A DNA stretch of 64,000 bases from positions 1-64,000 of the forward strand of contig JAUMWN010000004.1 of the NCBI GenBank assembly GCA_030529625.1, given 5' to 3'. This document shows, in pieces, positions 3,186 through 27,965 of the stretch. Source of the DNA: Coriobacteriales bacterium (GTDB lineage: Bacteria > Actinomycetota > Coriobacteriia > Coriobacteriales > Atopobiaceae). Each line of letters begins with the position of its first letter. Within the stretch, counting starts at the first letter, position 1. Made by a program: the position numbers and the translations under genes. The notes below the pieces were generated by a model. The model saw nothing but the letters and a program-made list of their open reading frames with translations. It did not search any database and was not told the origin of the DNA.

Positions 3186-3756
3186 CCGCGTCACCCTCCT
3201 TCATGTTTGTGTTGCCGCGATCGTCGCTTGCGGCGGACGGAACCGCCTGTTCTGCCAGGGTGTCTGTGCCCAGGTCCTCCACGCGCTCCAGTTCGTCGAG
3301 CACCGAGCGGGCGGCCCTAAACGACGCCTGCAGCTCCGCCTTGGGGTCGGGGCGCTCCTCCACCTTGGGGCGCACCTCGTCGGTCATGGCCACGGCGTTT
3401 GCCACCGCGACGTCATGTGTGTACGAGAGTGAGAGCGCCACCTCGCGCACGCCCTGCTCAAGCGCTACCTCCTGCGCGCGGCCGGCAAGCACGACCTCGG
3501 GCCGGCCCGCCTCGTTGCGTGCCACGCTCACGTCGGCAAGGCCAATCCCTTGCGAGAAGCCCGTGCCCAACGCCTTGAGCACCGCCTCGCGGGCGGCAAA
3601 CCGCGCGGCATAGTGCTTGGCCGGCCGAGCCATGCGATCGCAGTACGCGCGCTCCTCGGCCGTAAACACGCGACGCGCGAAGTTTGGCCTGCGCTCGAGG
3701 ACCTTCTCCATGCGCGCGATCTCCAGTATGTCCACACCAATGCCTGCGAGCGCCAT
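3169..3756 (-). CDS. acpS: Holo-[acyl-carrier-protein] synthase with an acidic C-terminal extension
   Basis: Transfers 4'-phosphopantetheine from CoA to apo-ACP. Seen: GIGVDILEIARM (Mg-binding Asp), FTAEERAYC, and KHYAARFAAREAVLKALGTG, then SLSYTHDVAVANAVA. The catalytic domain ends near residue 125, the usual family length, but the frame continues for about 70 more residues rich in E, D, A and R. The ATG is preceded by GGAGGGG. It is the first gene of the acpS-nnr-alr run, and the extension's coding sequence overlaps the nnr start. Function is firm; the role of the tail is unknown. Confidence 0.93.
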   Translation of the reverse strand: MALAGIGVDILEIARMEKVLERRPNFARRVFTAEERAYCDRMARPAKHYAARFAAREAVLKALGTGFSQGIGLADVSVARNEAGRPEVVLAGRAQEVALEQGVREVALSLSYTHDVAVANAVAMTDEVRPKVEERPDPKAELQASFRAARSVLDELERVEDLGTDTLAEQAVPSAASDDRGNTNMKEGDADATRA

Positions 3757-3883
3757 GCGCCCCTCCACCGTACGTCTTTTCTCATACGCACTCGATTCTA
3801 GCAGCAAAACGGGGCTAGGGGGACCGTCCCCTGATCCCCAGCAAGACATGAGCACGCGCGGACAACGACCAGGAAGGCCCAAA

Positions 3884-3956
3884 AGTGGACAATTTTTTTG
3901 CTAACGGCTCTCCGCCAAGTGGGAAAACGCCAGCATCTGCGAAAAAATTGTCCACT
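3884..3956. repeat. 73-bp element with 15-bp inverted ends, copy 1
   Basis: Starts with AGTGGACAATTTTTT and ends with its exact reverse complement. The interior contains GCCAAGTGGGAAAACGCC. Copy 2 (3970-4041) has the same ends and, on the opposite strand, a closely similar interior. Both lie in the divergent acpS/glmM spacer (3757-4211), which holds no gene. Confidence 0.85.
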
Positions 3957-3969
3957 CTATATTTTAGCT

Positions 3970-4041
3970 AGTGGACAATTTTTTAATGGGACGTGGCATT
4001 TTACCAGTTGGCGTTGTGACGCATGTAAAAAATTGTCCACT
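3970..4041. repeat. 73-bp element with 15-bp inverted ends, copy 2 (opposite orientation)
   Basis: Same 15-bp ends as copy 1. Read on the minus strand, its interior has GCCAACTGGTAAAATGCC, differing at only a few positions from copy 1. The two copies are therefore inverted relative to each other. A looser TGTCCAATTTGTAAA sits at about 4138-4152 upstream of glmM. Confidence 0.85.
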
Positions 4042-4211
4042 TTTCCTAGCCTGACGGCCGTCAAGGCGTCCCTATGGGACCCCAGCAGCAAACCCGGACG
4101 CAGGGAATCGACCTTTTGGCCCCAAGGCACGCCCCTCTGTCCAATTTGTAAATCGATGGGAACGCTGCCGCGCAATGCTTTAGAATTGTCCAGACGCGAG
4201 AGGAGCACATT

Positions 4212-5549
4212 ATGAAGTACTTTGGCACTGACGGATTCCGCGGCCAGGCCAACGAGGGCCTCAACGTGGACCACGCATTCAAGATCGGCCGCTTCGTGGG
4301 CTGGTACTACGGCCTGCGCCAGGAGCGCAAAGCCCGCATCGTTATTGGCAAGGACACCCGGCGCTCGAGCTACATGTTTGAGGCGGCACTTACGGCGGGC
4401 CTGGTGGCCAGCGGAGCCGACGTGTACATGCTGCACGTTATTCCCACGCCTGGCGTGAGCTACGAAGTGGTAGACGGCGCCTTCGACTGCGGCATCATGA
4501 TTACCGCGAGCCACAACCCCTACTACGACAACGGCATCAAGCTGGTCAATCGCGAGGGCTACAAGATGGACGAGGACGTCCTCGAGCAGATTGAGGACTA
4601 CATCGACGGCAAGTGCGACGTGCCGCTGGCCACCGGCGAGGACATTGGTCAGACCATCGACTACATGCAGGGCCGCAACCGCTACATCGCCCACCTCATC
4701 GCCAGCGCCAACTTTAGCCTGCAGGGCGTGCGCGTGGGCCTGGACTGCGCCAACGGCGCGGCCAGCTCGGTGGCCAAGCCCGTGTTCGACGCCCTGGGCG
4801 CCGACGTCCACGTTATAAACAACGCACCCAACGGCTTTAACATCAACGTGCACTGCGGCTCCACCCACATCGAGAACCTGCAGACCTTCGTGGTGCGCGA
4901 GGGCCTGGACGTGGGCTTTGCCTTCGACGGCGACGCCGACCGGTGCCTGGCCGTGGACGAGAACGGCCACGTGGTGGACGGCGACCTCATTATGTACCTG
5001 TGCGGACGCTTTATGCACAAGTACGGCCGTCTGGTAAAGGACACCGTCGTTCCCACCGTTATGAGCAACTTTGGTCTATACAAGGCCTTCGACGAGCTGG
5101 GCATCAACTACGAGAAGACCGACGTGGGCGACAAGTACGTGTACGCCTGCATGCGCGAGAACGGCTACGTGCTGGGCGGCGAGCAGTCCGGCCACATCAT
5201 CTTTGGCGAGCTCGAGCAAACGGGTGACGGCATTATGACCGCCCTGCGCGTGATGGAGGTCGTGCGTGCCGAGCGCGAGTCGCTCAGCGTGCTGTGCCGT
5301 CCCGTAAAGCTGTACGCGCAGCGCCTGGACAACGTGCACGTGTCCGACAAGACCGGCGCCATGGACTCGCCCCAGGTGAGGGCTGCCGTGGAGGAGGCCG
5401 AGAAGTTCCTGGAGGGCAACGGCCGCGTGCTGGTACGCGCCTCAGGCACCGAGCCCCTCGTGCGCGTGCTCTCTGAGACACCCGCCGACGACCTGTGCAA
5501 GCAGGCCAACGACATCGTGCTTGCCGCGCTGGAGCCGTACAAGGCGTAG
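4212..5549 (+). CDS. glmM: Phosphoglucosamine mutase (copy 1)
   Basis: Interconverts glucosamine-6-P and glucosamine-1-P on the way to UDP-GlcNAc. 445 residues. Seen: YFGTDGFRG at the N-terminus, the phosphoserine loop TASHNPYYDNGIK, the Mg-binding DGDADR, and the C-terminal phosphate-binding RASGTEP. GAGGAGCACATT precedes the ATG. It lies convergent to a second homologue at 5702-7048 that is roughly 60% identical by eye. Because it stands alone, it may be the housekeeping GlmM, but either copy could fill that role. Confidence 0.92.
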   Translation: MKYFGTDGFRGQANEGLNVDHAFKIGRFVGWYYGLRQERKARIVIGKDTRRSSYMFEAALTAGLVASGADVYMLHVIPTPGVSYEVVDGAFDCGIMITASHNPYYDNGIKLVNREGYKMDEDVLEQIEDYIDGKCDVPLATGEDIGQTIDYMQGRNRYIAHLIASANFSLQGVRVGLDCANGAASSVAKPVFDALGADVHVINNAPNGFNINVHCGSTHIENLQTFVVREGLDVGFAFDGDADRCLAVDENGHVVDGDLIMYLCGRFMHKYGRLVKDTVVPTVMSNFGLYKAFDELGINYEKTDVGDKYVYACMRENGYVLGGEQSGHIIFGELEQTGDGIMTALRVMEVVRAERESLSVLCRPVKLYAQRLDNVHVSDKTGAMDSPQVRAAVEEAEKFLEGNGRVLVRASGTEPLVRVLSETPADDLCKQANDIVLAALEPYKA

Positions 5550-5571
5550 GGGCCGGCGAACCATAGCATTG

Positions 5572-5620
5572 ACCGAACACGGGGGACACACCTCTTCGAG
5601 GTGTGTCCCCCGTGTTCGGT
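5572..5620. repeat. Perfect 23-bp-arm palindrome after glmM
   Basis: Arms of 23 bp around a 3-base loop (CCTC-TTC-GAGG at the apex). It sits between glmM and its terminator. A diverged copy occurs at 31333-31376 after the DUF4143 gene. Confidence 0.85.
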
Positions 5621-5629
5621 CTCGCACAT

Positions 5630-5670
5630 GGGCCGGACTCGGGGGGTTCCCCGAGTCCGGCCCTTTTTTT
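5630..5670 (+). terminator. Rho-independent terminator of glmM
   Basis: Stem of 15 bp (GGGCCGGACTCGGGG and its complement), GGTT loop, followed directly by seven T on the plus strand. It faces the 3' end of the convergent glmM paralogue. Confidence 0.93.
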
Positions 5671-5701
5671 CACGCGCAAGCGCGCCTTTGTCAACCCAAC
5701 G

Positions 5702-7048
5702 CTACGCCAGGTGTCCCTTGGCAGCGATCACGTCAATCACATCGTCCACGTAGCGCTCGCAGATCTCGTCGGTGCCAGCCTCAACCATCACGCGAATCAC
5801 GGGCTCAGTACCGCTCTCGCGCACCAGGATGCGCCCCTCATCGCCCAGCTCGGCGGCAACGCGCTTTACGGCGGCCTGCACGTCCGGGTCGTTTTGCGCC
5901 TCCGGTTTGCTCTTTACCCGCACGTTCTTGAGCACCTGCGGATAGAACACCACCGGAGCCGCAAGCTCGCTCATGGGCAGGCCCTTGGAGATCATGACCT
6001 CCATCAGCTTGAGGCTGGTGAGGATACCGTCGCCAGTGGTCTCATACTTGGAGAAGATGATGTGGCCGGACTGCTCGCCGCCAATGCAGTTGCCCGTCTC
6101 GACCATGTTCTCCCACACGTACTTGTCGCCCACGGCGGTCTTGTCATACTCGATGCCCACCGCGTCGAGCGCCTTGTACAGGCCGAAGTTGCTCATCACG
6201 GTGGTGACCACCTTGTTGTTGATGAGCTTGCCGCGCTCCTTCATGTACAGGCCGTAGATGTACAGCACGTGGTCGCCGGTGACGACGTTGCCCTTCTCGT
6301 CCACGCAGATGCAGCGGTCGGCGTCGCCGTCGTAGGCAAAGCCCACGTCCAGGCCGTTGTCCACCACGAACTTTTGCAGGTGCTCGATGTGGGTGGAGCC
6401 GCAGTCGGTGTTGATGTTGTAGCCGTTAGGCTCGTCGCTCATCACATACGTCTTTGCGCCTAGGGCGTCGAACACGCGGCCGGCAATCTGCCAGGCGGCG
6501 CCGTTGGCGAGGTCCAGACCCACCTTGATGCCCTTAAAGCTGAACTTGTTCATGGAGATGAGGTGGCCGATGTAGCGGTTGCGGCCGCTCACGAAGTCCA
6601 CCGTGCGGCCAATCTCGTCCCGCTCCGACACGGGAATCTCGATCTTGCCGTCGATGTAGTCCTCGACCTTGAGGATGGTCTCCTCGTCCATCTTCTCGCC
6701 ACCGGCGTTGAGCAACTTGATGCCGTTGTCCCAGTAGGGGTTGTGGCTCGCGCTTATCATGATGCCGCAGTCAAAGTCGTCGCGGCTGCAAATGTAGCTC
6801 ACCGACGGCGTGGTGGTTACGTGCATGATGTATGCGTCGGCGCCGCTGGCCATAAGGCCGGTGCACAGCGCGTACTCAAACATGTAGCTCGAACGGCGCG
6901 TGTCCTTGCCAATAACGACCTTGGCCTTCTTGCCCTGACGGGCACCGTAGTACCACCCGAGGAAGCGGCCGATCTTTATGGCGTGGTCAAAAGTGAGGTC
7001 GCAGTTGGCCTCACCACGAAAGCCGTCTGTGCCAAAGTACTTGCCCAT
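5702..7048 (-). CDS. Phosphoglucosamine/phosphohexose mutase (glmM paralogue)
   Basis: 448 residues, start chosen at MGKYFGTDGFRG with GGAGAAGGCGAC upstream. Seen: SASHNPYWDNGIK (phosphoserine loop), DGDADR (Mg site), RESGTEP. It is close to the first GlmM along the whole length but clearly diverged, so this is an old paralogue. It is the third gene of the run nagB - beta-helix protein - this gene, with 13-bp gaps, so its substrate is probably an amino-sugar phosphate. It may be a GlmM isozyme or have shifted to N-acetylglucosamine or mannose phosphates; sequence alone does not decide. Confidence 0.88.
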   Translation of the reverse strand: MGKYFGTDGFRGEANCDLTFDHAIKIGRFLGWYYGARQGKKAKVVIGKDTRRSSYMFEYALCTGLMASGADAYIMHVTTTPSVSYICSRDDFDCGIMISASHNPYWDNGIKLLNAGGEKMDEETILKVEDYIDGKIEIPVSERDEIGRTVDFVSGRNRYIGHLISMNKFSFKGIKVGLDLANGAAWQIAGRVFDALGAKTYVMSDEPNGYNINTDCGSTHIEHLQKFVVDNGLDVGFAYDGDADRCICVDEKGNVVTGDHVLYIYGLYMKERGKLINNKVVTTVMSNFGLYKALDAVGIEYDKTAVGDKYVWENMVETGNCIGGEQSGHIIFSKYETTGDGILTSLKLMEVMISKGLPMSELAAPVVFYPQVLKNVRVKSKPEAQNDPDVQAAVKRVAAELGDEGRILVRESGTEPVIRVMVEAGTDEICERYVDDVIDVIAAKGHLA

Positions 7049-7061
7049 GTCGCCTTCTCCT

Positions 7062-7724
7062 TTATGCCTCGCGCTTACGCACGACGTCGCCTGAGTTCTT
7101 CCAGATGCTGTGCTCGGGCACCACGCCACGCACGCACGACGTGGGATACACGTTGCTCCAGCGGCCAATCACGGTTCCAGGGTTGAGCACTGCGTTGCAG
7201 CCCACCTCAACGTGGTCACCCAGCATGGCGCCAAACTTCTTGATGCCGGTCTCGATCTGCTCGGTACCGTTGTGCACCACCACGAGCTGCTTGTCGGCCT
7301 TTACGTTGGAGGTGATGGAGCCTGCGCCCATGTGGCTAAACTGACCCAAGATGGAGTCGCCCACGTAGTTGTAGTGCGGCGTCTGCACGTTGTCGAACAG
7401 GATCACGTTCTTGAGCTCCACCGAGTTGCCCACCACGCAGTTGGCACCCACCAGAGCCGAGCCGCGCACGAAGGCGCATTGGCGCACCTCGGTGTTTGGG
7501 CCAATGATGCAGGGGGCACCCAGGTAGGCAGAGTCAAACACGGTCGCCGTCTTGTGCACCCACACCTCGGGCGCGCGCTCCTCGTAGTCGTCGCCCAGCG
7601 TGGGACCAAGGGTGCGGATAAGGTCCGTTATGCCTGCCAGAGCCTCCCAGGGATAGGTAAACTGACGCAGGTAATCAGCGGCCATCGTGTGGTCGAGGTC
7701 ATAGAGATCTTCAATTGTGTACAT
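7062..7724 (-). CDS. Left-handed beta-helix (hexapeptide-repeat) transferase, GlmU C-domain-like
   Basis: 220 residues. The N-terminal ~50 form a non-helix segment (YTIEDLYDLDHTMAADYL). The rest is hexapeptide repeats: AYLGAPCIIGPNTEVRQCAFVRGSALVGANCVVGNSVELKNVIL, then VQTPHYNYVGDSILGQFSHMGAG, a pattern typical of the acetyltransferase half of sugar-phosphate nucleotidyltransferases. There is no pyrophosphorylase domain. It lies between nagB and the second glmM, so it may acylate glucosamine-1-P or a related sugar. The substrate is inference. Confidence 0.8.
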   Translation of the reverse strand: MYTIEDLYDLDHTMAADYLRQFTYPWEALAGITDLIRTLGPTLGDDYEERAPEVWVHKTATVFDSAYLGAPCIIGPNTEVRQCAFVRGSALVGANCVVGNSVELKNVILFDNVQTPHYNYVGDSILGQFSHMGAGSITSNVKADKQLVVVHNGTEQIETGIKKFGAMLGDHVEVGCNAVLNPGTVIGRWSNVYPTSCVRGVVPEHSIWKNSGDVVRKREA

Positions 7725-7736
7725 GCGAGCTTCCCC

Positions 7737-8528
7737 CTAGAGCCTCTGGTCACGCTCGATGTCGAGGAAGTACTTGTAGGTGTCCACGGTCAGCTCGCCG
7801 CAGGCCTCCTCATCGCAGGCGATGATGGCGCCGTTATGCAGCTGCAGCGCGGAGCAGGTCCACTTGTGAGACACGTCACCCTCAACGGTCTTGGCAAGAG
7901 CGCGGGCCTTGTTGTGGCCGTTGATCAGGATCATGACCTCCTTGGCGTCGCACACCGTGCCAACGCCCACCGAAAGCGCCATCGCGGGAACCTTCTCGGG
8001 GTCGTTGCCAAAGAAGCGAGAGTTCACGATGCGGGTGTCGGTGGTGAGCTTGCGCAGACCCGTGCGGGAGTTGAGGCTGGTGTAGGGCTCGTTGAAGGCG
8101 ATGTGGCCGTCCACGCCAATGCCGCCCATAAACAGGTCGATGCCGCCGTAGGAGGCGATCTTCTCCTCGTAGGCTGCGCACTCGGCCTCGGGGTCGGTGG
8201 CCATGCCGTTGAGGATGTTGATGTTCTCAGGCTTCATGTCCACCAGGTGGTTAAAGAAGTTGTCGTGCATGAAGTACCAGTAGCTCTGGTCGTGGTCGTG
8301 GTCAAGGCCCACGTACTCGTCCATGTTAAAGGTCACCACGTTGGCAAACGAGAGCTCGCCGGCCTGGTTCTGGCGCACCAGCTCCTGGTACACGCCAATG
8401 GGGCTCGAACCGGTGGGAAGGCCAAGCACGAACGGGCGGTCCTCCTTATGGCTGCGAATCTTGTTGGCAATGTAGTCCGCAGCCCACTTGCTCATCTTCT
8501 CGTAGTTGTCCTGAATAACAACGCGCAT
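7737..8528 (-). CDS. nagB: Glucosamine-6-phosphate deaminase
   Basis: Converts glucosamine-6-P to fructose-6-P and ammonia. 263 residues, start at [13 protein letters not shown] with AAGGAGG 8 bp upstream. Seen: LGLPTGSSP (phosphate loop), FNMDEYVGL (catalytic Asp), and [15 protein letters not shown] (catalytic Asp/His). First gene of a three-gene operon with the beta-helix protein and the second glmM, which puts deamination and the 6-P to 1-P mutase step under one control. Confidence 0.95.
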
Positions 8529-8848
8529 GAAAAAAACCTCCTTGCGACGCATGGTCGCACCGATGTTGTTGCTCGTGGCGACAGAAGAGCCTCTGTTACG
8601 GTGTTGATTCCGCTTTTTACTCTCTTCCTCTCGACCCGCCTTTTGGCCGTGGCAGCACCCGCCGAGTCTTTCGATAACTGCCATCCTCGTCAACCATCTC
8701 TGGTCCAGGCGCTAACGACTTCCCTTGTTGTGATTGACCCTCCTTTCGCGGAAGCGTTTGGTCGGTATTAAACCACAGAGTCGCTCGCTTTGCGCAAATC
8801 ACACGGCACCACCATGGGGTCGGCCTCATAGACCGTAACAAACGCGCA
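8529..8848. other. Gene-free spacer upstream of nagB
   Basis: About 320 bp separate nagB from the lipoprotein terminator. I see no credible gene. A long nagB leader is likely. A TTGACG followed 17 bp later by AAGACT on the minus strand near 8700 is only a weak promoter candidate. Confidence 0.4.
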
Positions 8849-8881
8849 GGCCGAGCGCGGAGGCACCTCCCACGCTCGGCC
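8849..8881 (-). terminator. Stem-loop after the lipoprotein gene
   Basis: Nine-bp stem GGCCGAGCG/CGCTCGGCC with a further GGAGG/CCTCC inside the loop. It lies just beyond the stop of the 8909-9721 gene. The T tract is poor, so termination strength is uncertain. Confidence 0.55.
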
Positions 8882-8908
8882 CGCTCCTGCGCTTGGCAGG
8901 ACATGTGC

Positions 8909-9721
8909 CTATGAGCCGCCGCCAAAGGGATATTCCTCGGTAAAGACGCGCACCTCAACCGGCACGTCGGGCATCACGAACTCCCACGTAAGGCCGTGGC
9001 TGTTTGTAAGCCTCTGGCCGTTTACGGTAACTACCGTCTGGACATCGAGCACCGCCTTGGTGCTCACGCGCACGACCTCGCCGGCCATCGCTGAGGTGGG
9101 GCAGCTCTCGACTAGGTCATCCTCGTCCGCCACCACGATTGGATGCACGTGGTCATCGCCGGTAGTGGCACCCTGCAGCTCGCGGACCTTTGCCCACAGC
9201 ACCGCGTCGCCTTCCACGGCGTAGTTCGTGTCGGGCCGCACCAGGTTGCCCGCGCCCTCAAACCGCAGCCCCACCTTCGTGCCGTCCTGCAGCTCAAAGT
9301 ACACGTAGTGGTAGCTGTCCGTAATGCTCATGCCGCTTGCATCGAGCACGCGGATGTTGCTCACGTAGTCGTACATCTGCTTGATCTGGTCCTCGTCGGT
9401 GACGGCAACCGAGGGCAGGCCACCCATCTGGTCGAAGAGCGCCTCGCACTTCTTGGGCACCTTGCCTGCCGCCATGTCCTCCACGAGCCGCTTGTAGCCC
9501 TCGTCGTCGAAGTAGACGAGGACGGAGTTCTTCGGCAGCTCCTCGGCCGGGGCGGGCTGTTCCGTCTTGGACTCCTTGGTGTTCTTGTCGTCGGTCTGGG
9601 TCTGGGTCTCGGTCTTGGGCGCGTCGCTTGCGGTGGGTTGAGGCGCAGGCGCACCACAGCCAACAAGCAGGCCACACAGGCCCAGCGTGCACAGCACGGT
9701 AGCTACGATTCTCTTTTTCAT
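8909..9721 (-). CDS. Putative lipoprotein of unknown function
   Basis: 270 residues. Signal peptide MKKRIVATVLCTLGLCGLLVGC with a lipobox ending LLVGC, so it should be exported and lipid-anchored. A charged, low-complexity linker (T, Q, K, E, P; about residues 25-62) follows. The folded part starts with NSVLVYFDDEGYKRLVEDM and later contains EVVRVSTKAVLDVQTVVTVNG, perhaps a small beta domain. I do not recognise the family. It is monocistronic and divergent from the aldo/keto reductase. Confidence 0.75.
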   Translation of the reverse strand: MKKRIVATVLCTLGLCGLLVGCGAPAPQPTASDAPKTETQTQTDDKNTKESKTEQPAPAEELPKNSVLVYFDDEGYKRLVEDMAAGKVPKKCEALFDQMGGLPSVAVTDEDQIKQMYDYVSNIRVLDASGMSITDSYHYVYFELQDGTKVGLRFEGAGNLVRPDTNYAVEGDAVLWAKVRELQGATTGDDHVHPIVVADEDDLVESCPTSAMAGEVVRVSTKAVLDVQTVVTVNGQRLTNSHGLTWEFVMPDVPVEVRVFTEEYPFGGGS

Positions 9722-9839
9722 GGCGTTCCTCTCTTCTCCATGAACCGCAACCTATACATAACACGACGGGGCGTGGCAAAATGTCGCGAGTTTTTGGCAA
9801 GCGGCCAACGAACGGCGTGCCCAGATGGCGGCTGGCGGC

Positions 9840-9868
9840 TATACTGAGTATATGTCTTATAAACATAT
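9840..9868 (+). promoter_or_regulatory. AT-rich overlapping dyads in front of the aldo/keto reductase
   Basis: TATACTGAGTATA (9840-9852) overlaps the dyad ATATGTCTTATAAACATAT (9850-9868), which ends a few bases before the GAGAGGAG ribosome site. The first contains a TATACT -10-like hexamer. The second is placed like an operator. Confidence 0.5.
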
Positions 9869-9883
9869 CTGAGAGGAGCGACT

Positions 9884-10813
9884 ATGCGCTGCATTTCCTT
9901 TGGCCCCAGCAAAACCAAGGTGTCTGAGGTCGTGCTGGGCACCATGCGCATAGCCCAGAAGACCCCACAGCAGGTGGCCGAGCTCATTCAAACCGCGCTT
10001 GACTGCGGCATAAACGCCGTGGACACCGCACCCATCTACGGGCCGTCCGAGGGTATTATTGGCGACGCCTTTGCGGTGAGCCCTGGGCTGCGCGACCGAG
10101 TGTGGCTGCAAACCAAGCTGGGCATTCGCCCCCATCCGCGCGTGAAGTCCAACTACTTTGACTTCTCGTATGAGCACATTATTGAGTCTGTTGAGAACAG
10201 CCTCACGGCGCTGCGCACCGACCACATCGACTCCCTGCTCCTCCACCGACCCGACGCGCTCATGGAGCCCGATGAGATAGCGCGCGCTTTCCAAGTGCTA
10301 CACGACGCCGGCAAGGTGATTGACTTTGGCGTGTCCAACCAAAACCCCGCCATGATGCGTCGCCTGGCCAAGCACCTCACCGTGCCCATAACCGCCAACC
10401 AAGTGCAAATCTCAGCGGCGTTTACGCCTATGTTCGATGCCTTCTTTAACGCGAACATGCAAAACGACGCCGCGGTTATGCGCGACGGCGGCATCCTTGA
10501 GTACTGCGGCGAGCACGACATGGCCATCCAGGCCTGGAGCGTGCTGCAACACGGCTACTTTGGCGGCGTGTTCTTGGGTGATGCCAACTACGCCGAGCTC
10601 AATGCCGCGCTCGAACGCATAGCCGCCGAGCACGACAGCACACCCACCGCCGTCGCCATCAACTGGGTGCTGCGCTATCCCGCAAAGATGCAGGCCATCG
10701 TGGGAACCACGCGCCCCGAGCGCGTGCGCGCAAGCGCGGCCGCCTGCGACTGGCAGATGAGCCGCGAGGAGTGGTACGAGATCTACCTCTGCGCCGGCAA
10801 CATGCTGCCGTAA
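9884..10813 (+). CDS. Aldo/keto reductase
   Basis: NAD(P)H-dependent oxidoreductase, 309 residues, cytoplasmic. The catalytic tetrad is visible: Asp and Tyr in NAVDTAPIYG, Lys in LQTKLG, His in SLLLHRPD. FGVSNQNPAMM and the C-terminal IVGTTRPERVRAS nucleotide-phosphate motif fit the YdhF/AKR11-type group. GAGAGGAGCGACT precedes the ATG. The physiological substrate cannot be told. Confidence 0.9.
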   Translation: MRCISFGPSKTKVSEVVLGTMRIAQKTPQQVAELIQTALDCGINAVDTAPIYGPSEGIIGDAFAVSPGLRDRVWLQTKLGIRPHPRVKSNYFDFSYEHIIESVENSLTALRTDHIDSLLLHRPDALMEPDEIARAFQVLHDAGKVIDFGVSNQNPAMMRRLAKHLTVPITANQVQISAAFTPMFDAFFNANMQNDAAVMRDGGILEYCGEHDMAIQAWSVLQHGYFGGVFLGDANYAELNAALERIAAEHDSTPTAVAINWVLRYPAKMQAIVGTTRPERVRASAAACDWQMSREEWYEIYLCAGNMLP

Positions 10814-19507: not shown

Positions 19508-19569
19508 GGGGGGGACTGTCCCCCGAATATGGAGGCGTGTCCCCCGAACACAGGGGACAGTCCCCTCAG
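19508..19569. repeat. Palindrome with two GGGGAC(A/T)GTCCCC cores
   Basis: Exact cores at 19511-19523 and 19553-19565 flank a short GTGTCCCCC segment. Located between the GTPase stop and the HD-GYP gene. Confidence 0.85.
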
Positions 19570-19668
19570 TACGAATGCGGCAGCAATCCCTCGTGTACAT
19601 AAGCGCCCGTGAGGGCTATTATTAAGCTTGTGTCATTATGCAAAGACCTACAAGGACTAAGGGGCGTT

Positions 19669-21948
19669 ATGGGTACGAGCCAACGCTTTAAACGCATTCC
19701 CCCAAGATACCTGCGCACGCTCGCCTTTTGCGTAGTGTGCGTTATCGTTAACGTCGCGGGCGCGTCCTTTGCCTCCGCGTTTCGCCTTCCCATCTACCTG
19801 GACAGTCTGGGGACCATCCTCGTGTCCATCTTGGGCGGATACGTCCCGGGCATAGCGGTTGGCTATGCGACCAACCTGCTCAACAGCATCGCCGACGGCA
19901 ACTACATGTCCTACGGCATCGTCAACGTCGTAATAGCCCTCCTTACCGCGAACCTCGCGCAGCGCGGGTGGTTCAAGCGCCTGTCGCGCACCATCTACGC
20001 CATCTTTATCCTGGGCGCGGTGTGCGGCGCGTTGGGCCTACTGCTCACCTTCCTACTGCACGACGGCAGCCTGGGCAACGAGATATCGGCGCCGTTTGCC
20101 CAGCAGCTCCAGCAAACCGGACTGCTCGACCTCACGTCTGCGCAGGTAATCGCCGAGTTCGCGGTAGGCTTTGTGGACAAGGCGCTCGTCGTCCTCTTGG
20201 CCACGCTCCTATACCACATGGCCCCCGAGGACTTCCTCGCGAGCCTCGACTTCGTTCCCTGGCAGCAAAACCCCCTCTCCGACCAAGAGCTCAACGACAC
20301 CATGAACGCCAAGCCGCGAAGCATGTCGCTGGGTACCAAGTTCGTTATTATGGTTGCGACGATCGTCTCCATCGTCTCGGTGGCGACCACGGCCTTTAGC
20401 TACATAACCTTCCACCAGTCCACCATCGAGCTGGAGAGCGCCAAGGCCAAGGGCATCACCGCGTTGATGGCCAATGCGGTGGACCCCGAAATGGTGTCGG
20501 AGTACCTCACCAAGGGCGATGATGCCCCAGGCTATGCCGAGGTCGAGGAGAAGCTCGCCGCCATTCGCGACTCGTTTGAGAACGTCCAATACGTGTACGT
20601 GTACCAAATACGGCCTGACGGCTGTCATGTGGTGCTCGACCCCGACACGGCAGACGAGCCCGGCTCGGACCCCGGCGCCGTGGTGGAGTTTGACGAGTCC
20701 TTCTCGAGCTATCTGCCCACGCTGCTTGCGGGCGGCGAGATTGATCCCGTAATCTCCAACGAGACATACGGCTGGCTGCTCACCATCTACACGCCCCTCA
20801 AGAACGATGCGGGCGAGACCGTGTGCTATTTGGCGGCCGACCTCTCCATGGAGCGCCTGGTAAGCAACGAGCACTCCTTCGTGGCGGGCATCATCTCGCT
20901 GTTCGCGGCATTCTTCGTCCTGGTGTGCGCCATAGTCCTGTGGCTCGCGCGCTACGGCATCATCGTGCCCGTAAACTCCATCGCACGTGTGTCGAGCCTG
21001 TTCGTGAGCACCAAGACCGGCATTCGCCGAGAGAACCTGGAGGCCATAGAGGCGCTCAACATACACACGGGAGACGAGATCGAGAACCTCTACGGCGCCG
21101 TCAACCAAATGTCGCAGGCGGTAGTGAGCCACGTTGCCGAGGCCGAGGAAAAGAGCGAGGCCATAAACCGCATGCAGAGCAACCTCATTATGGTCCTTGC
21201 CGACCTCGTGGAGAGTCGCGACAAGTACACCGGCGACCACGTGCGCAACACGGCAAACTACGCGCGCATCATTATGAACCAGATGCGCCGCGAGGGCATT
21301 TGTCCGGACGTGCTTACCAACGAGTTTATCTCCAACGTGTACCAGTCGGCGCCCCTGCACGACATTGGCAAGATCGCCGTCTCGGACGCCATTCTCAACA
21401 AGCCCGGCCGCCTGACCGATGAGGAATTCGAGATTATGAAGAGCCACACCCTGGCGGGCCAGGAGATCCTGGAGAACGCCAAGGGTGCCGTCTCGGAGGC
21501 GTCCTACCTGGACGAGGCGCAGCGCCTGGCGGCCTACCATCACGAGAAGTGGAACGGCACGGGGTATCCGTATGGCCTGGCGGGCGAGGAGATTCCGCTC
21601 TCGGCCCGCATTATGGCCGTTGCCGACGTCTTTGACGCGCTGGTCTCCAAGCGCAGCTACAAGGCGGGCTTCCCCGTGGAGAAGGCCTTCGCGATTATTG
21701 AGGAGGGCATTGGCACGCACTTCGACCCGCAGGTGGCACGCGCCTTCCTCCACGCCAAGGACAAGGCGAGCGCCGTCGTCGCCGAGACCAAGAAGCGCCA
21801 GGAAGCAGAAGAGGCGGCAAAGCTCGAGGCCCAGGCCCAGGAGGAAGCCCAAAAACAGGCGGAGGCCCAGGCAGAGGCGCAGCCCAGCGGTTCCGCGCCG
21901 GCCAACAAGCCAAACAAACCCGAGAAGCCCAGCGAAGACGCAAAGTAA
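19669..21948 (+). CDS. Membrane-bound HD-GYP domain protein (probable cyclic-di-GMP phosphodiesterase)
   Basis: About 759 residues from ATG 19669 (MGTSQRFKRIPPRYL). Domains in order: an N-terminal multi-pass region (LGTILVSILGGYVPGIAVGYATNLLNS...) resembling ECF substrate-binding subunits; a cytoplasmic link; a second TM pair around an extracytoplasmic sensor; a HAMP-like linker; and an HD-GYP domain with DKYTGDHVRNTANYA, PLHDIGKIAVSDAIL and HHEKWNGTGYPYGL. The last ~60 residues are an E/A/Q/K-rich helix. It is followed after 16 bp by a GGDEF gene, so the two are probably one operon. Confidence 0.9.
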   Translation: MGTSQRFKRIPPRYLRTLAFCVVCVIVNVAGASFASAFRLPIYLDSLGTILVSILGGYVPGIAVGYATNLLNSIADGNYMSYGIVNVVIALLTANLAQRGWFKRLSRTIYAIFILGAVCGALGLLLTFLLHDGSLGNEISAPFAQQLQQTGLLDLTSAQVIAEFAVGFVDKALVVLLATLLYHMAPEDFLASLDFVPWQQNPLSDQELNDTMNAKPRSMSLGTKFVIMVATIVSIVSVATTAFSYITFHQSTIELESAKAKGITALMANAVDPEMVSEYLTKGDDAPGYAEVEEKLAAIRDSFENVQYVYVYQIRPDGCHVVLDPDTADEPGSDPGAVVEFDESFSSYLPTLLAGGEIDPVISNETYGWLLTIYTPLKNDAGETVCYLAADLSMERLVSNEHSFVAGIISLFAAFFVLVCAIVLWLARYGIIVPVNSIARVSSLFVSTKTGIRRENLEAIEALNIHTGDEIENLYGAVNQMSQAVVSHVAEAEEKSEAINRMQSNLIMVLADLVESRDKYTGDHVRNTANYARIIMNQMRREGICPDVLTNEFISNVYQSAPLHDIGKIAVSDAILNKPGRLTDEEFEIMKSHTLAGQEILENAKGAVSEASYLDEAQRLAAYHHEKWNGTGYPYGLAGEEIPLSARIMAVADVFDALVSKRSYKAGFPVEKAFAIIEEGIGTHFDPQVARAFLHAKDKASAVVAETKKRQEAEEAAKLEAQAQEEAQKQAEAQAEAQPSGSAPANKPNKPEKPSEDAK

Positions 21949-21964
21949 CGAAACGGTGAGTACT

Positions 21965-23350
21965 ATGAACGAGAAACAGAAGCAGCTCGCAAAGCAAAAC
22001 GGTGGTGTGAGCATTCGTGTTGTTGGCATCATCACCACGGTGATCGCCATTGGCCTGTCGTTCTACGCGTTTGCGCTGTCGGGCTACATCGCAGAGACCG
22101 AAATATCCCTAGCCGCCGAGGAGGCCCGCTACGTGGAGTGCAGCAACGCCGTGGACGAGCTGCAGGCAGCCTCCGACTACCTTACCAGCGAGTCACGCAT
22201 GTATGTGGTAACAGGACGCAGGGAGCACCTGGACAACTACGTAAACGAGTATGCCGTCTCCAGCAGGCGCGAGAAGGCAGTTGACGTAATGAGGTCCAAC
22301 GTCGCCGAGAACCAGGAGGCCATCAACGAGTTGGAGATGGCGCTCGACTCGTCCAACGGACTTGCCAAGAGCGAGCTTGCGGCCATGCGCCTTGCCGCCG
22401 ACTACTACGAGCTGGAAGATCTGCCCGAGGAGATCGCGACGGTGAGCACGGACCTCTTTAGGTCGACGCCCGACAAGGACTCCAAGCTCAACGCCGCACG
22501 GGGCCTCGTGCTGAGCGACAACTACGACAGTGCCAAGAAGAGCATCGTGGAGCGCGTGCAGGCAAGCTCGATGGCGCTTCTTGAGGACCTCAACGCGGAC
22601 CTCCAAACGAGCAGTGACGCGATGAAGTCGCTCCTGTTCCAGCTGCGCATTGCGGTTGCCCTGCTGCTGTGCGTGATCCTGCTGTTTGTCCTGGCGCTCT
22701 TTATGTACGTGCTCAAGCCGCTCGGCCGATATGTGGAGCGCCTGAGCGGAGACGAGCCCCTGGAGCCCGACGGGGCCTACGAGCTGCACTATCTCGCCAA
22801 CGCCTACAACACCATCTACGAGGACAATACCAAGCGCATCGAACAGCTGCGCAAGTACGCCGAGCAGGACCCCCTTACGGGCATCAGCAACCGTGGAGGC
22901 TACGACAACTTCCTCGCCACCCACACCCGCAACATCGCGCTTCTGCTCATTGACGTGGACAACTTTATGGACTTCAACGCGGTGTATGGCCACGACACCG
23001 GCGACGCCGTCCTCATAAAGCTGGCCGAGGCGCTGGTTACGGCCTTTAGGTCCACCGACTTCCCCTGCCGCATCGAGGGCGACCGGTTTGCCGTGATCAT
23101 GACCAACATGAACACCGAGCTGCGCTACGCCATTCTTTCAAAGATTGAGCTGGTGCATTCCATCCTGGATGACGACTCGTCCAACCTGCCAGCCGTCACC
23201 CTCTCGGTAGGTGCCGCTTTTAGCACCGAGGGCATGAACGACAAGGACATCTACCGCGCCGCAAGCACCGCTCTGTCGCAGGCAAAGCAGGCAGAGCCCA
23301 ACAGCGTCGTGTTCTACGGCGAGGGCGTCGTAACCGCAGACGAGGAGTAA
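21965..23350 (+). CDS. Membrane GGDEF-domain protein with degenerate active site (EGDRF)
   Basis: 461 residues. TM1 (VVGIITTVIAIGLSFYAFAL), a ~200-residue helical sensor region rich in E and A, TM2 (LRIAVALLLCVILLFVLALFMYVL), then a GGDEF domain starting AEQDPLTGISNRGGYDNF. The catalytic loop reads CRIEGDRFAVI rather than GG(D/E)EF, so cyclase activity is doubtful; it may bind nucleotide or act as a regulator. Start at MNEKQKQLAKQN, 16 bp after the HD-GYP gene, with only a weak ribosome site. Confidence 0.9.
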   Translation: MNEKQKQLAKQNGGVSIRVVGIITTVIAIGLSFYAFALSGYIAETEISLAAEEARYVECSNAVDELQAASDYLTSESRMYVVTGRREHLDNYVNEYAVSSRREKAVDVMRSNVAENQEAINELEMALDSSNGLAKSELAAMRLAADYYELEDLPEEIATVSTDLFRSTPDKDSKLNAARGLVLSDNYDSAKKSIVERVQASSMALLEDLNADLQTSSDAMKSLLFQLRIAVALLLCVILLFVLALFMYVLKPLGRYVERLSGDEPLEPDGAYELHYLANAYNTIYEDNTKRIEQLRKYAEQDPLTGISNRGGYDNFLATHTRNIALLLIDVDNFMDFNAVYGHDTGDAVLIKLAEALVTAFRSTDFPCRIEGDRFAVIMTNMNTELRYAILSKIELVHSILDDDSSNLPAVTLSVGAAFSTEGMNDKDIYRAASTALSQAKQAEPNSVVFYGEGVVTADEE

Positions 23351-23351
23351 T

Positions 23352-23432
23352 AAGGTAGACCAAAGGGGACTGTCCCCCCAGTTTGGCCTCGCCAGAGGCT
23401 GAACTGGGGGGACAGTCCCCTTTGTCTACCTT
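23352..23432. repeat. 81-bp near-perfect palindrome with two GGGGAC(A/T)GTCCCC cores
   Basis: Arms of about 38 bp (AAGGTAGACCAAAGGGGAC... and its complement) around GCCTC-GCCA-GAGGC. Exact cores at 23365-23377 and 23408-23420. It fills the space between the convergent GGDEF and permease-fusion genes and may terminate both. Confidence 0.9.
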
Positions 23433-23435
23433 CCG

Positions 23436-26400
23436 TTACTCCGGGCGCACGCCAATCACGATGTGGTGGTCGTCGCTGCTGCGGGTCCTAATGGTTTGCA
23501 GGATGTAGGGCTCGGGCACGCCATTCTTGAGGCGCCTAAAGGCAATCTCGCTCGTCTCCTCCTGGCTCACCCAGCGAATGAGGCTCGCCTTGCTCAGCAC
23601 CTCGCGTAAGCGGTCCACGTCCTCCTCGTACACGTAGGACAGCAGCCGCTCGCGGGCCTCGCCAAAGAAGTCCGTGCCGCCAGGCCTAATCTGCAGGTCA
23701 CCATCCTGGCCGCTATAGAACTCCAGGAAGTGCGCCGTAACCACGTCCACGTAGAAGATGCTCTCAAAGTCGCTGGTAAGTGCGTTGGAGATGCTCATGT
23801 ACATGCGCCTCACGGCCGGTGCGATCTCCACGCCCTGCTCGCCGCGCTCGGTGAGGAAGCGATCGAACTCCTCGGCCGGCACGGGCCTGGAGAAGTAGTA
23901 GCCCTGGACGTAGTCGCACCCCATGGCCTTGAGCACGAGGTACTGCTCCTCGGTCTCCACGCCCTCGGCCACCACGGGCACGTGCAGGTAGTCCGCGATG
24001 TCTATGATGAGCTCGATCATGCGCACGTCGCGCGTCTCGCCAAAGGCGCTGCGCACGAAGCTCATGTCCAGCTTGAGCACATCGATGGGCAGGTGCGTCA
24101 ACATGCCCAGCGACGAGTAGCCCGTGCCAAAGTCGTCCATCTCGATGCGGAAGCCCATGCCCATGCCACGCAGCTCCCGCGCCGTGGAGATTACCTGCTC
24201 GGCGTCCTCGGTATAGGCCGACTCCGTGACCTCCAGCATGAGGTCCTCGGGATTCAGGTCGTATTCGTCCAGTATCTCCGTAAAGATGCTCTTGAGGTTG
24301 GGCATGAGCATGTCGATGCGGGAGACGTTAACCGAGACGGGCACCGAGTAGCCAAAGCGGTCCTTCCAGTCCCGTATGCGGGCCGCGGCCTCACGCCACA
24401 CAAACATGTCGAGGTCCAGGATGAGGCCGTTGTCCTCCAGCAGCGGGATAAAGACGCCAGGGTTGATCATGCCCAGCTCGGGATGGTTCCAGCGCACCAG
24501 CGCCTCGGCGCTCGAGAGCACGGGCTTGTCCGGCCGGATGTCGTACTTGGGTTGGAAGTGCACGGCAAAGTGGTTGTTCTCCAGGGACGGCTTAAAGTCG
24601 TCGAGCAGGCGCTCGCGGTACAGCTCGGCATCGTGCATCTCGGCGTCGTAGATGCCAACCGCCCTTCCAAATCCGCCCCTCACGGTATTGCTCGCGGTCT
24701 TGGCGTAGTCAAAGCGGCGCTCGATCTCGAGGTCCTTCTCCGCGTTGGAGTACACACCCATGCGCAGGCGCACCCTGGTCGTCGTGGACTCGTCCTGCCC
24801 AAGCCCCGCGGTAACCTTTGCCAGCATGTCGTCGTAGTCGTCGCGATGCGGACAGTACACAAAGAAGGTGTCTCCGCTGTGGCGGCAGCTCACGCCACCC
24901 ACCTCGCGGGAGAGCGTTCGAACGCTGTCGCCAATGTGGGCGAGTACGCTGTCGCCATACTGGTTGCCAAAGCGCTCGTTGAGCATGTGGAAGTTGTTAA
25001 CGTCCAGCACGATGGCGTCCATGGGCATGTCGGTGTAGTGCCGGTCGTACATCCTCACGTAGTTCATAAAGTAGCTGAGGTTGTACAGCCCGGTAAGGGG
25101 ATCGCGCTCGGTGGACTCGATGATGCTGCGCTTTTGCGAGAGCTCGATGCAGCGGTTGACCCTGGCACGCACGATCTCCCAGGTGGGATAGGGCTTGGGG
25201 ATAAAGTCCATCGCGCCAATCTCCAGGCACTCCACCTCGGCGCTTTGGTCGGCCGTCATCACAATAACGGGGACGTCGGCAAGCTCGGCCTCCTCCTTCA
25301 TCACCTTGAGCACCTCTATGCCACTCATGCGCGGCATGAGCAGGTCCAAGAGCACGATGGCAATCTCGCCCATGTGCTTGCGAATCTCCTCGAGCGCCTC
25401 AATGCCATCCGTCGCATACAGCAGCTCGTAGTCCGTCTCCTCAAGCATCTGGCCCAAGATCATGAGGTTTACGTCCTCGTCCTCCACAATGAGGATGTGC
25501 CGCTTGCTGGCAAAGCCCTGCTCGTCGTTGAGCACAGGCATTATGTCCGCCGCCTCCTCGGCATCCTCCCTCGTAAAGGAGCCAAGGCCCTTGAGCAGCT
25601 TCTTCTCCTCGTACATACGGCCATCCGCCCGCTCAAAGACGCTGTGCAGGTTGGGGTCCTCGGCCGGATCGAACTCCGCAAGACCACCCGACACCACGAC
25701 CTCGTCCGAGCCGATGTGCTCAATTGAACGGTCGTGCAGGGCCAGGACGAGCTCCTTGCGAATAATGTAGTCGCGTCCCGTGAGAATGACCACGAACTCG
25801 TCTCCGCCAATGCGGAACACCGGGCTGTGCTGGAAGATGTCGCAGATCATGAGGAACGCCTGGCGAATGTACTCGTCGCCGGCCTTGTGCCCCAGCGTGT
25901 CGTTTATTACCTTAAGGCCGTTTACGTCGCACACCACGACGGCAAAGTCTTTTGCCTCGCCCTTGTCAATCGCGTCATTGAGCCCCTGCTCCTTGAGGAG
26001 ATAGGCGTGTTTGCTCTTTGCGCCGGTAAGCGAATCCCTGTACGCGGTCGCCTTTGCCGCATCGCGCTCCGCCTCCGCCTTCTTTTCCCATTTTTCCATG
26101 GACAGGTGGTTAATGAGCATCGCACCGAGTGCGAGTGCGAACAGAACCGAGATGAGCAGCGTGTTTGTGGTGTCCACGCTATGGATGTGCTCGAGCTGTC
26201 CCTGAATAAAGGCATCCTCGCTCAGGGTTTGGAAGACCGCTTCCGCCTGACCGTGGAAGTACTGCTGGACGGTAAAGATCGCCTCGTTCGTGGATTGCTC
26301 GTCCACGCGGCCCGACCAGATCATTGCCATAAAGACGACCAGGGCCAAAAGCGAAATCCACACGATGATCGCCTTGCCAAAGCGTCTTGCCTCGTCGTAC

Positions 26401-27785
26401 TTAAGGATCCACCTAAAGTAGAAGAAGCCTATAACGGTCCACACCATAAAGAGGATGTACGTCTCGGTCTCCAGCGTGTAGTCCGAGAACAGGTTGGGGA
26501 AGAGCAGGTAGATAACAAAGAGCAGCATTACCACAAAGCCAACGACGCCCGTGATCATTTCTCGGGTGTTCTTGAGCTTCTTCGCCATCTTAAAGGTCGC
26601 CGCCGACACGAAGCCGTACAGCATGGTGGCACCAAGCGTGGTTACGTCCACGTTCCAGCCGATTGCCGTGCGGCCCACGAAGGCTATGGGGATGCTTATT
26701 ACGGCAATCAGGAGCATGGCGTTCGCGGGAACGTCTATGTCGTTGAGATGGGCAAAGGGGCTGGGCAGGATATCGTCGCGCGCGGCGGCGTAGCATAGCC
26801 TGCTCAAGGCGCGCAGGTTGCCAATCAGGCTGGTAAGGACCAGCGACAGTAGCGAGGCCATGAGTATGCCTACGCCAACGTCGCCCAGGTAGTAATGCGC
26901 GGCGTAGAAGGCGGGCAGGCCCTCGATGCCGGAGTAGTTCCCCAGGTTTTGGATGTAGTCCAGCCAGTTGGCGCAGCCCGCCGGGAAGGCGGTAACGCTC
27001 AGCAGCGTCACAAAGACGTACAGGGCCGTGGAGACGAGTACGGATAGCACAAGGATGCGATAGAGCCTGTCTTTTTTAAAATTGAACTCCTCCGCAGAAT
27101 GGGTGATGCCCTCAAAGCCAATAAGCGCCCAGGGCGAGATAAACGTAATGCGAATCACTTGCGACAGCACGTTCTTGTCGGGCACGAACGCAGGGGCCAT
27201 GCTGCCCTTATGGCCAAAGATTGCGACGCCAAAGCAGATGGTAATTCCTATTAAGAATATAAAGACCATAACGGTAGCCGCGTGGGCCACAATTTTCTTG
27301 CTGCGCATGCACAAGGCGGTTATCGCAAAGATGGCCACCAGCGTGAGCAGCGCCTCGCCCAGGTAGATCTCGTAGCCAAACACGTTGAACAGGTGCACGA
27401 ACCTAAACATGTCCCCAATAAAGAACTTGGAGAACAGCGGCAGACTCGTCGCGTTCGCCCAGAATATGGAGATGTAGGTAAGGCTGAGGTACCAAAACAC
27501 CAGGAACGCGCGGTCGTAGCCAAAGATCTCCTTAATGTAGGTGTAGGCACCACCTGCGCGGGGGTAATGTTTGGACAGGTAGAAGAAGTTGCGGCACATG
27601 AGCAGCATGAGGACCGTGCCAACGAGTAGTCCGATTGTGGTGCCCGCAGGCCCGGCCTGCTTGAGGTAGGTGCTGCTGGTAACGACCAGGGACCCCCAGC
27701 CAACGGCCGCGCCCACCGACAACGCCCATGCCGCGACCGGAGAGAGATACGACTTTAAACCAACTTCTGGCTTGTTCTTGGTCAT
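23436..27785 (-). CDS. Amino-acid-permease / GGDEF / REC / GGDEF-like / EAL fusion protein
   Basis: 1449 residues from ATG 27785 (AGGG 5 bp upstream). Order, numbered from an ATG four codons earlier: APC-superfamily permease with about 12 membrane segments (15-495; VAAWALSVGAAVGWGSLV, YPRAGGAYTYIKE, GFEGITHSAEE); extracytoplasmic loop (497-545) and a further TM; GGDEF with an intact RIGGDEF (585-740) but no RxxD inhibitory site; response-regulator receiver with LLDLLMP phospho-Asp (767-885); a second GGDEF with SGDTF (~895-1060); EAL with EALVRW, VNVS, VTES, DDFG, KLD, AEGVE and QGYYF, all catalytic residues kept (~1065-1310); a PAS-like tail. Probably couples solute sensing to cyclic-di-GMP turnover. 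Confidence 0.93.
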   Translation of the reverse strand: MTKNKPEVGLKSYLSPVAAWALSVGAAVGWGSLVVTSSTYLKQAGPAGTTIGLLVGTVLMLLMCRNFFYLSKHYPRAGGAYTYIKEIFGYDRAFLVFWYLSLTYISIFWANATSLPLFSKFFIGDMFRFVHLFNVFGYEIYLGEALLTLVAIFAITALCMRSKKIVAHAATVMVFIFLIGITICFGVAIFGHKGSMAPAFVPDKNVLSQVIRITFISPWALIGFEGITHSAEEFNFKKDRLYRILVLSVLVSTALYVFVTLLSVTAFPAGCANWLDYIQNLGNYSGIEGLPAFYAAHYYLGDVGVGILMASLLSLVLTSLIGNLRALSRLCYAAARDDILPSPFAHLNDIDVPANAMLLIAVISIPIAFVGRTAIGWNVDVTTLGATMLYGFVSAATFKMAKKLKNTREMITGVVGFVVMLLFVIYLLFPNLFSDYTLETETYILFMVWTVIGFFYFRWILKYDEARRFGKAIIVWISLLALVVFMAMIWSGRVDEQSTNEAIFTVQQYFHGQAEAVFQTLSEDAFIQGQLEHIHSVDTTNTLLISVLFALALGAMLINHLSMEKWEKKAEAERDAAKATAYRDSLTGAKSKHAYLLKEQGLNDAIDKGEAKDFAVVVCDVNGLKVINDTLGHKAGDEYIRQAFLMICDIFQHSPVFRIGGDEFVVILTGRDYIIRKELVLALHDRSIEHIGSDEVVVSGGLAEFDPAEDPNLHSVFERADGRMYEEKKLLKGLGSFTREDAEEAADIMPVLNDEQGFASKRHILIVEDEDVNLMILGQMLEETDYELLYATDGIEALEEIRKHMGEIAIVLLDLLMPRMSGIEVLKVMKEEAELADVPVIVMTADQSAEVECLEIGAMDFIPKPYPTWEIVRARVNRCIELSQKRSIIESTERDPLTGLYNLSYFMNYVRMYDRHYTDMPMDAIVLDVNNFHMLNERFGNQYGDSVLAHIGDSVRTLSREVGGVSCRHSGDTFFVYCPHRDDYDDMLAKVTAGLGQDESTTTRVRLRMGVYSNAEKDLEIERRFDYAKTASNTVRGGFGRAVGIYDAEMHDAELYRERLLDDFKPSLENNHFAVHFQPKYDIRPDKPVLSSAEALVRWNHPELGMINPGVFIPLLEDNGLILDLDMFVWREAAARIRDWKDRFGYSVPVSVNVSRIDMLMPNLKSIFTEILDEYDLNPEDLMLEVTESAYTEDAEQVISTARELRGMGMGFRIEMDDFGTGYSSLGMLTHLPIDVLKLDMSFVRSAFGETRDVRMIELIIDIADYLHVPVVAEGVETEEQYLVLKAMGCDYVQGYYFSRPVPAEEFDRFLTERGEQGVEIAPAVRRMYMSISNALTSDFESIFYVDVVTAHFLEFYSGQDGDLQIRPGGTDFFGEARERLLSYVYEEDVDRLREVLSKASLIRWVSQEETSEIAFRRLKNGVPEPYILQTIRTRSSDDHHIVIGVRPE

Positions 27786-27913
27786 CCGGTCCCTCATTCA
27801 TACTGTATTTAATCGCGAGATGCCTATTAACTTATCAGTATATCGGTTTAGCCACGCCGGCCCTGCGGCAGTTTGCCTCACATGGCTGTACGGTAGCTAG
27901 GCTGGAGGTGATG

Positions 27914-27965
27914 CCGCGCTCGGGGGACAGTCCCCTGCGCACAGGGGACTGTCCCCCGAGCGCGG
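27914..27965. repeat. Perfect 24-bp-arm palindrome in a divergent promoter region
   Basis: Arms CCGCGCTCGGGGGACAGTCC... with a CGCA loop. Exact cores GGGGACAGTCCCC (27923-27935) and GGGGACTGTCCCC (27944-27956). It lies 50 bp upstream of the MATE gene and about 130 bp from the divergent permease fusion, so terminator function is not obvious here. Confidence 0.9.

Follow-up and report, generated by a model that had tools for sequence, protein, structure and literature searches.

We analysed a 64,000-nucleotide stretch of DNA from a Coriobacteriales bacterium (family Atopobiaceae; assembly GCA_030529625.1, contig JAUMWN010000004.1, positions 1 to 64,000), from here on referred to as the window, and focused on one gene on its reverse strand, which encodes an APC-type permease followed in the same chain by a GGDEF domain, a receiver (REC) domain, a degenerate GGDEF (dGGDEF) domain and an EAL domain, i.e. 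domains of cyclic-di-GMP (c-di-GMP) signaling. We refer to this gene and its product as the fusion. Residues are numbered in the 1453-amino acid frame beginning at the first ATG; subtracting 4 gives the 1449-amino acid numbering of the original prediction, an earlier reading of this DNA. The features of the gene are as follows (TM, transmembrane helix).

23436 to 27797, reverse strand: whole open reading frame of the fusion, 1453 codons from the first ATG, a single uninterrupted frame
27791 to 27795, reverse strand: putative Shine-Dalgarno sequence GAGGG, suggested by the sequence, 5 nt upstream of the ATG at 27785
26388 to 27755, reverse strand: APC-type permease domain, residues 15-470, 12 TMs (Pfam, AlphaFold, fold and profile matches)
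26100 to 26372, reverse strand: TM13, a short, variable extracytoplasmic helical hairpin, and TM14, residues 476-566 (AlphaFold model)
26046 to 26099, reverse strand: cytoplasmic helical stalk, residues 567-584 (AlphaFold model)
25599 to 26045, reverse strand: GGDEF1, an intact GGDEF domain lacking the RxxD inhibitory site, residues 585-733 (Pfam)
25170 to 25496, reverse strand: receiver domain, residues 768-876 (Pfam), with the codon of the phospho-acceptor D818 at 25344-25346
24648 to 25115, reverse strand: GGDEF2, degenerate (SGDTF), residues about 895-1050, between receiver and EAL
23883 to 24596, reverse strand: predicted EAL phosphodiesterase domain, residues 1068-1305 (Pfam), with the full set of catalytic residues
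23439 to 23825, reverse strand: C-terminal PAS-like domain, residues about 1325-1453, missing from some relatives of the fusion

The second ATG, at 27785, is the likely start (1449 amino acids) and is better supported than the first because GAGGG sits 5 nt upstream of it. Pfam places AA_permease_2 at residues 18-433 (E-value 2.2e-27), GGDEF at 585-733, Response_reg at 768-876 and EAL at 1068-1305 (E-value 5e-61). The single-chain order of permease, GGDEF, REC, GGDEF and EAL proposed in the original prediction is borne out by the intact frame, the Pfam domains and the same order in relatives; the domains it named were all found, but its list was incomplete, as the C-terminal domain had been overlooked. 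We call the latter PAS-like because tandem copies of it occur elsewhere in the same genome and because Pfam PAS_3 matches the N-terminal part of a related protein (locus L109), where the PAS-like repeats of that protein lie. A profile search of the PDB with the domain's own profile returned no significant solved structure.

A search of a genome collection for the fusion yielded 80 loci, to which genus-mates were added for alignment. In total, 76 distinct sequences, counting that of the window, can be aligned in a single frame across more than 1250 residues. Nonsynonymous substitution (dN) lies far below synonymous substitution (dS) in every domain; at the junction (residues 545-620), dN is 0.14-0.48 and dS about 1 or more, rates by which the join of the permease and signaling parts is under purifying selection. 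These observations bear on the possibility that a permease gene and a signaling gene were joined by assembly or annotation error. In its favor, the genome is a fragmented metagenome-assembled genome (MAG; 194 contigs, about 7.5% contamination), and in one genus-mate (G006, locus L103) a deletion with a change of frame breaks the gene at residues 530-564. However, the 75 other one-frame sequences come from many independent assemblies and selection acts across the join, so we rejected this explanation, whose remaining probability we consider negligible. The original prediction had named an assembly join, or permease and signaling halves always separate in relatives, as grounds for refutation; the conserved order in relatives and the selection across the join favor a genuine fusion.

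In the alignment of 76 sequences, conservation is 99-100% at the signature of GGDEF1 and at least 99% at its catalytic residues; DVNGLKxxND is nearly invariant, GHKAGD is conserved and the inhibitory RxxD site is absent from the alignment. GGDEF1 therefore has both the GG(D/E)EF signature and the metal/GTP residues of a predicted diguanylate cyclase, and its product is expected to be c-di-GMP because the guanine-specifying residues look normal when judged against studies of PleD and Hypr GGDEF domains. In the receiver, D773, D818, T848 and K868, the residues of a phospho-receiver, are 100% conserved. GGDEF2, by contrast with the active-cyclase signature GG(D/E)EF, is degenerate in all sequences (SGDTF here, consensus GADTF), with D976 and F978 retained. 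The EAL domain has the complete E, N, E, D, D, K, E, Q set of a putative phosphodiesterase (E1098, N1157, E1189, D1221, D1222, K1242, E1278 and Q1298), again 100% conserved. An intact first GGDEF, a receiver with its phospho-Asp, a dead second GGDEF and an EAL with all catalytic residues are what had been claimed from the window sequence, and the family upholds each of them. The best fold match of the C-terminal half is the GGDEF-EAL part of PA0575 with GTP (5m3c), followed by MorA, DosP and RocR.

The AlphaFold model of residues 1-600 (pLDDT 84) has the APC fold, and residues 11-477 superimpose on y+LAT1, AdiC and CAT4 with Z of about 37 and a root-mean-square deviation of 2.4-3.0 over 380-425 residues. 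The nearest sequence-profile matches are CAT1, CAT4 and GkApcT. With its AA_permease_2 profile match and 12-TM fold, the domain belongs to the APC superfamily and is the complete APC-type permease described in the original prediction. The most conserved membrane segments are TM1, TM3, TM6 and TM10, and the least conserved is the extracytoplasmic hairpin (499-545); therefore, the ligand site, if any, is probably the transporter's own, and the extracytoplasmic loop is an unlikely one. In the model, residues 527-585 form one continuous helix that leads from the outer hairpin, by way of TM14, to the cytoplasmic side and makes a plausible signal stalk. The TM5 lysine of proton-coupled ApcT (K158) and GkApcT (K191) has no counterpart inside TM5 in a profile alignment to 5oqt or in the columns of the family alignment, where a lysine occurs only at the cytoplasmic edge; this hallmark of proton-coupled ApcT/CAT-type transporters is thus missing, and a non-transporting receptor would, for that reason, be as open a reading as a transceptor. 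The same features bear on a wiring in the reverse direction, in which the permease would be a working transporter and the c-di-GMP and phospho-receiver domains would gate uptake. The strong conservation of the TM1 GxG and TM6 GFE..EE motifs of APC transporters, and the presence of KimA, an APC-fold transporter with c-di-AMP bound, among the fold matches, would fit such gating, but the missing TM5 lysine does not, and GGDEF1 and EAL keep all the catalytic residues that pure binding-type regulators tend to lose.

The permease type is shared by four forms: (i) the permease-GGDEF-REC-dGGDEF-EAL fusion, (ii) permease-GGDEF (about 770-830 amino acids), (iii) permease-HisKA-HATPase-REC(-REC) (about 990-1130 amino acids) and (iv) permease-PAS-like-GGDEF. 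The gene for form (iii) usually adjoins a separate REC-dGGDEF-EAL gene, also in two other Coriobacteriia genomes, and such a pair lies on contig C102 of the window's own genome. By its domain content, the fusion corresponds to permease-GGDEF and REC-dGGDEF-EAL in one chain. In five Clostridial loci (L041, L042, L069, L070 and L114), all drawn from the clade that is sister to the window's, REC-dGGDEF-EAL, permease-histidine kinase-REC-REC and the fusion are adjacent, and permease-GGDEF comes next in two of these complete operons. In L042 (Ruminococcaceae RUG13855), the permease-histidine kinase occupies 2608-5964 and the fusion 5998-10344. Conversely, in L109 (2596-6903) three PAS-like repeats take the place of the permease ahead of the GGDEF-REC-dGGDEF-EAL-PAS-like cassette. 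From this exchange of forms and this replacement, we conclude that the permease stands, in terms of domain arrangement, where an input domain stands. Both findings also speak against uptake gating, since histidine kinases are normally outputs, and we judge that wiring to be quite improbable. As separate observations, the own-genome paralogues of permease-GGDEF (contig C49) and permease-kinase (C102) both have broken frames, through sequencing error or decay, and a permease-HisKA-HATPase-REC frame at L090 (10483-14073) continues into an alpha/beta-hydrolase domain.

Alternatively, the permease could be a passive anchor that localizes or co-expresses the c-di-GMP enzymes without conformational coupling, the true signals being receiver phosphorylation and the PAS-like domain. 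Consistent with this, conservation is poor in the hairpin that separates the permease from GGDEF1, and in the SLC5-kinase CbrA the kinase is reported to be independent of the transporter domain (PMC7096432). A 12-TM anchor, however, needs no invariant residues in TM1, TM6 and TM10 across proteins with different outputs, nor does it account for the retention of the fused state in the genus and across phyla; we regard it as unlikely.

The genus of the window (16 genomes) contains 42 AA_permease_2 genes, 37 of which are frames of 723-1532 amino acids, all those examined being signaling fusions. The others are two broken fusions, two fragments and a single free permease, which is a distant relative (463 amino acids, 23% identical); no free permease of the fusion's subfamily was found in these genomes. 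A genus almost without free APC permeases is a point for uptake gating, as it could rely on the fused ones for transport. In other genera of the family, most AA_permease_2 matches lie in frames of 450-560 amino acids, and in a class-wide sample a close relative of the permease occurs in only 5 of 199 genomes, two of them outside the genus and both in the kinase form. The interpretation in the original prediction is partly supported: the idea of a transceptor gains comparative backing from a permease with four outputs, an output with a PAS-like input and the lack of a free subfamily permease in the genus, whereas a report of solute flux, or transport at all, would be a further supposition.

The fusion is about 64% identical to that of most genus-mates and 76% identical to that of the Lachnospiraceae MAG RUG12864, whereas for SecA, encoded on the same contig as the window, identity is 86-91% with genus-mates and 52-56% with Clostridial MAGs. 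Records from Coriobacteriia, Clostridia, Erysipelotrichia and Chloroflexota are intermixed in the fusion tree and separated in the rpoB tree, and this conflict with the host phylogeny implies that the fusion was transferred horizontally between Coriobacteriia and Clostridia. Because the GC content of the gene tracks that of the host (0.43 to 0.65), most copies appear to be long established. Taxon names are the depositors', and single records may be misbinned, but the exchange between Coriobacteriia and Clostridia is independent of any single record. Two were excluded from the argument: a Succinivibrionaceae record (UBA3769, L039), which may be a binning error (flank GC 0.456 versus 0.55 for the gene and the rpoB locus), and a Chloroflexota record (L061) whose MAG carries two rpoB sets. 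The named sources are mostly herbivore gut.

Overall, domain order, catalytic conservation, permease fold, a selected frame, modularity and the occurrence in operons with permease-kinases make it reasonably probable, in our view, that c-di-GMP control takes its input from the permease. The CAT/ApcT-like domain would be the signal input of a membrane receptor, either a transceptor or transport-dead, and its ligand would probably be an amino acid or amine. Binding or the conformations of the transport cycle may be passed through TM13-TM14 and the helical stalk to GGDEF1, so that permease conformation would set diguanylate cyclase output. Phosphate would reach the receiver in trans from a hybrid kinase, for which the sister permease-histidine kinase is a plausible candidate, and the receiver would control the dGGDEF-EAL phosphodiesterase attached to it; two inputs to a single chain would then determine how c-di-GMP is made and degraded. 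The ligand, the direction of control, the phosphate donor and the enzyme activities are the inferred parts of this scheme. Kinases are enriched among the adjacent same-strand neighbors of the fusion (15/73 versus 15/336, p 2.7e-5), although these counts come from related loci that are not independent, and the five complete operons are one clade. Further points weigh against receptor control by the permease: no kinase gene is seen beside the fusion in the window, the permease-kinase frame on C102 is broken in the assembly, no PilZ effector was detected in the window's own genome (controls positive), and the domain packing of the predicted C-terminal half is unreliable (pTM 0.45), AlphaFold leaving the interdomain geometry unfixed.

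APC-superfamily permeases acting as amino-acid sensors are familiar from yeast, where Gap1 and Ssy1 signal through PKA or SPS; these are eukaryotic and have no fused enzymes. The closest structural match of the dGGDEF-EAL half, RmcA (PA0575, Pseudomonas, PAS-GGDEF-EAL), lacks both permease and receiver; it has a periplasmic binding-protein-type sensor and reportedly responds to L-arginine. RocR/PvrR-type REC-EAL regulators similarly link a receiver to EAL but are stand-alone and soluble, whereas the fusion puts a dGGDEF between REC and EAL and the module behind a permease-GGDEF. Among prokaryotic proteins, SLC5-STAC systems, defined by an SLC5 membrane domain of 13 TMs together with a STAC domain, carry a transporter domain N-terminal to kinase (CbrA, CrbS and RpuS) or GGDEF outputs (PMC5715377), and CbrA transports histidine (PMC7096432). 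The fusion shares the N-terminal transporter domain but has an APC/CAT-type membrane domain with a 2-TM hairpin, and GGDEF, REC, dGGDEF and EAL in one chain; the matches of its membrane part are to AA_permease_2 (Pfam) and, in sequence searches of the PDB, to CAT-type transporters rather than to SLC5, and general scans, in which no STAC profile was applied, identified no STAC domain. In the ammonium transporter-histidine kinase Ks-Amt5, the transporter fold was repurposed as a receptor and transport was lost (PMC5764959), but fold (Amt) and output (kinase) differ from the APC fold and c-di-GMP output here. The S-component-fold (5TMR) receptors, called the first prokaryotic transceptor fold in 2024 and having GGDEF, EAL and histidine kinase among their soluble partners, likewise have a fold other than APC (PMC11109136, which also cites Gap1). 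We found no published APC-permease-GGDEF or APC-permease-kinase protein in the open-access literature, subscription papers and domain databases being outside the search. Transporter-signaling fusions are already known (SLC5-STAC and Amt-kinase), and the APC-permease version would be a new one, its priority being unproven.

The window contains a further gene of this kind at 19609-21948 on the forward strand, an ECF S-component-like membrane domain fused to HD-GYP, of the same type as the 5TMR receptors; its product is predicted to be another sensor that builds on a transporter fold and belongs to c-di-GMP signaling. A GGDEF gene lies beside it (22016-23350), and in L039 and L100 relatives of the S-component-HD-GYP gene occur close to the fusion. 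The own genome (G000) has dozens of GGDEF/EAL matches. A search for a c-di-GMP-I riboswitch, in which the control likewise gave no match, yielded none. The sequence GGGGACWGTCCCC occurs in ten copies in the window versus 0.01 expected (19511-19565, 23365-23420, 27923-27956, 43010, 47198, 51274 and 55809); several copies are long GC-rich inverted repeats between genes, resembling repetitive extragenic palindromes (REP) or terminators, and two flank the fusion gene. Adjoining phosphoglucomutase/phosphomannomutase-like genes (4212-5549, forward strand; 5702-7168, reverse strand) lie near a glmS ribozyme at 8573-8724.

On balance, we lean slightly toward the view that a whole subfamily of APC permeases has been turned into prokaryotic receptors whose output can be exchanged among a kinase, a cyclase and a bifunctional c-di-GMP enzyme with receiver, that it has nearly displaced free APC permeases within a single Coriobacteriia genus and that it spreads between phyla in the herbivore gut. 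In the chain encoded in the window, the ligand would act directly on synthesis and a phosphorelay on degradation. Known prokaryotic transporter-fold receptors are few (SLC5-STAC, Amt5 and the S-component fold). With an APC/CAT-type receptor that acts on c-di-GMP, amino acid-to-c-di-GMP sensing would become directly testable in one gene. Such a receptor would also illustrate the genus-wide conversion of a transporter fold to sensing, and its matched split and fused forms would show how the wiring evolved. As this protein is found again in dozens of bacteria from the herbivore gut, the former transporter probably now acts there as a nutrient sensor, a role relevant to how bacteria sense nutrients and switch lifestyle in a habitat where c-di-GMP has been little studied.

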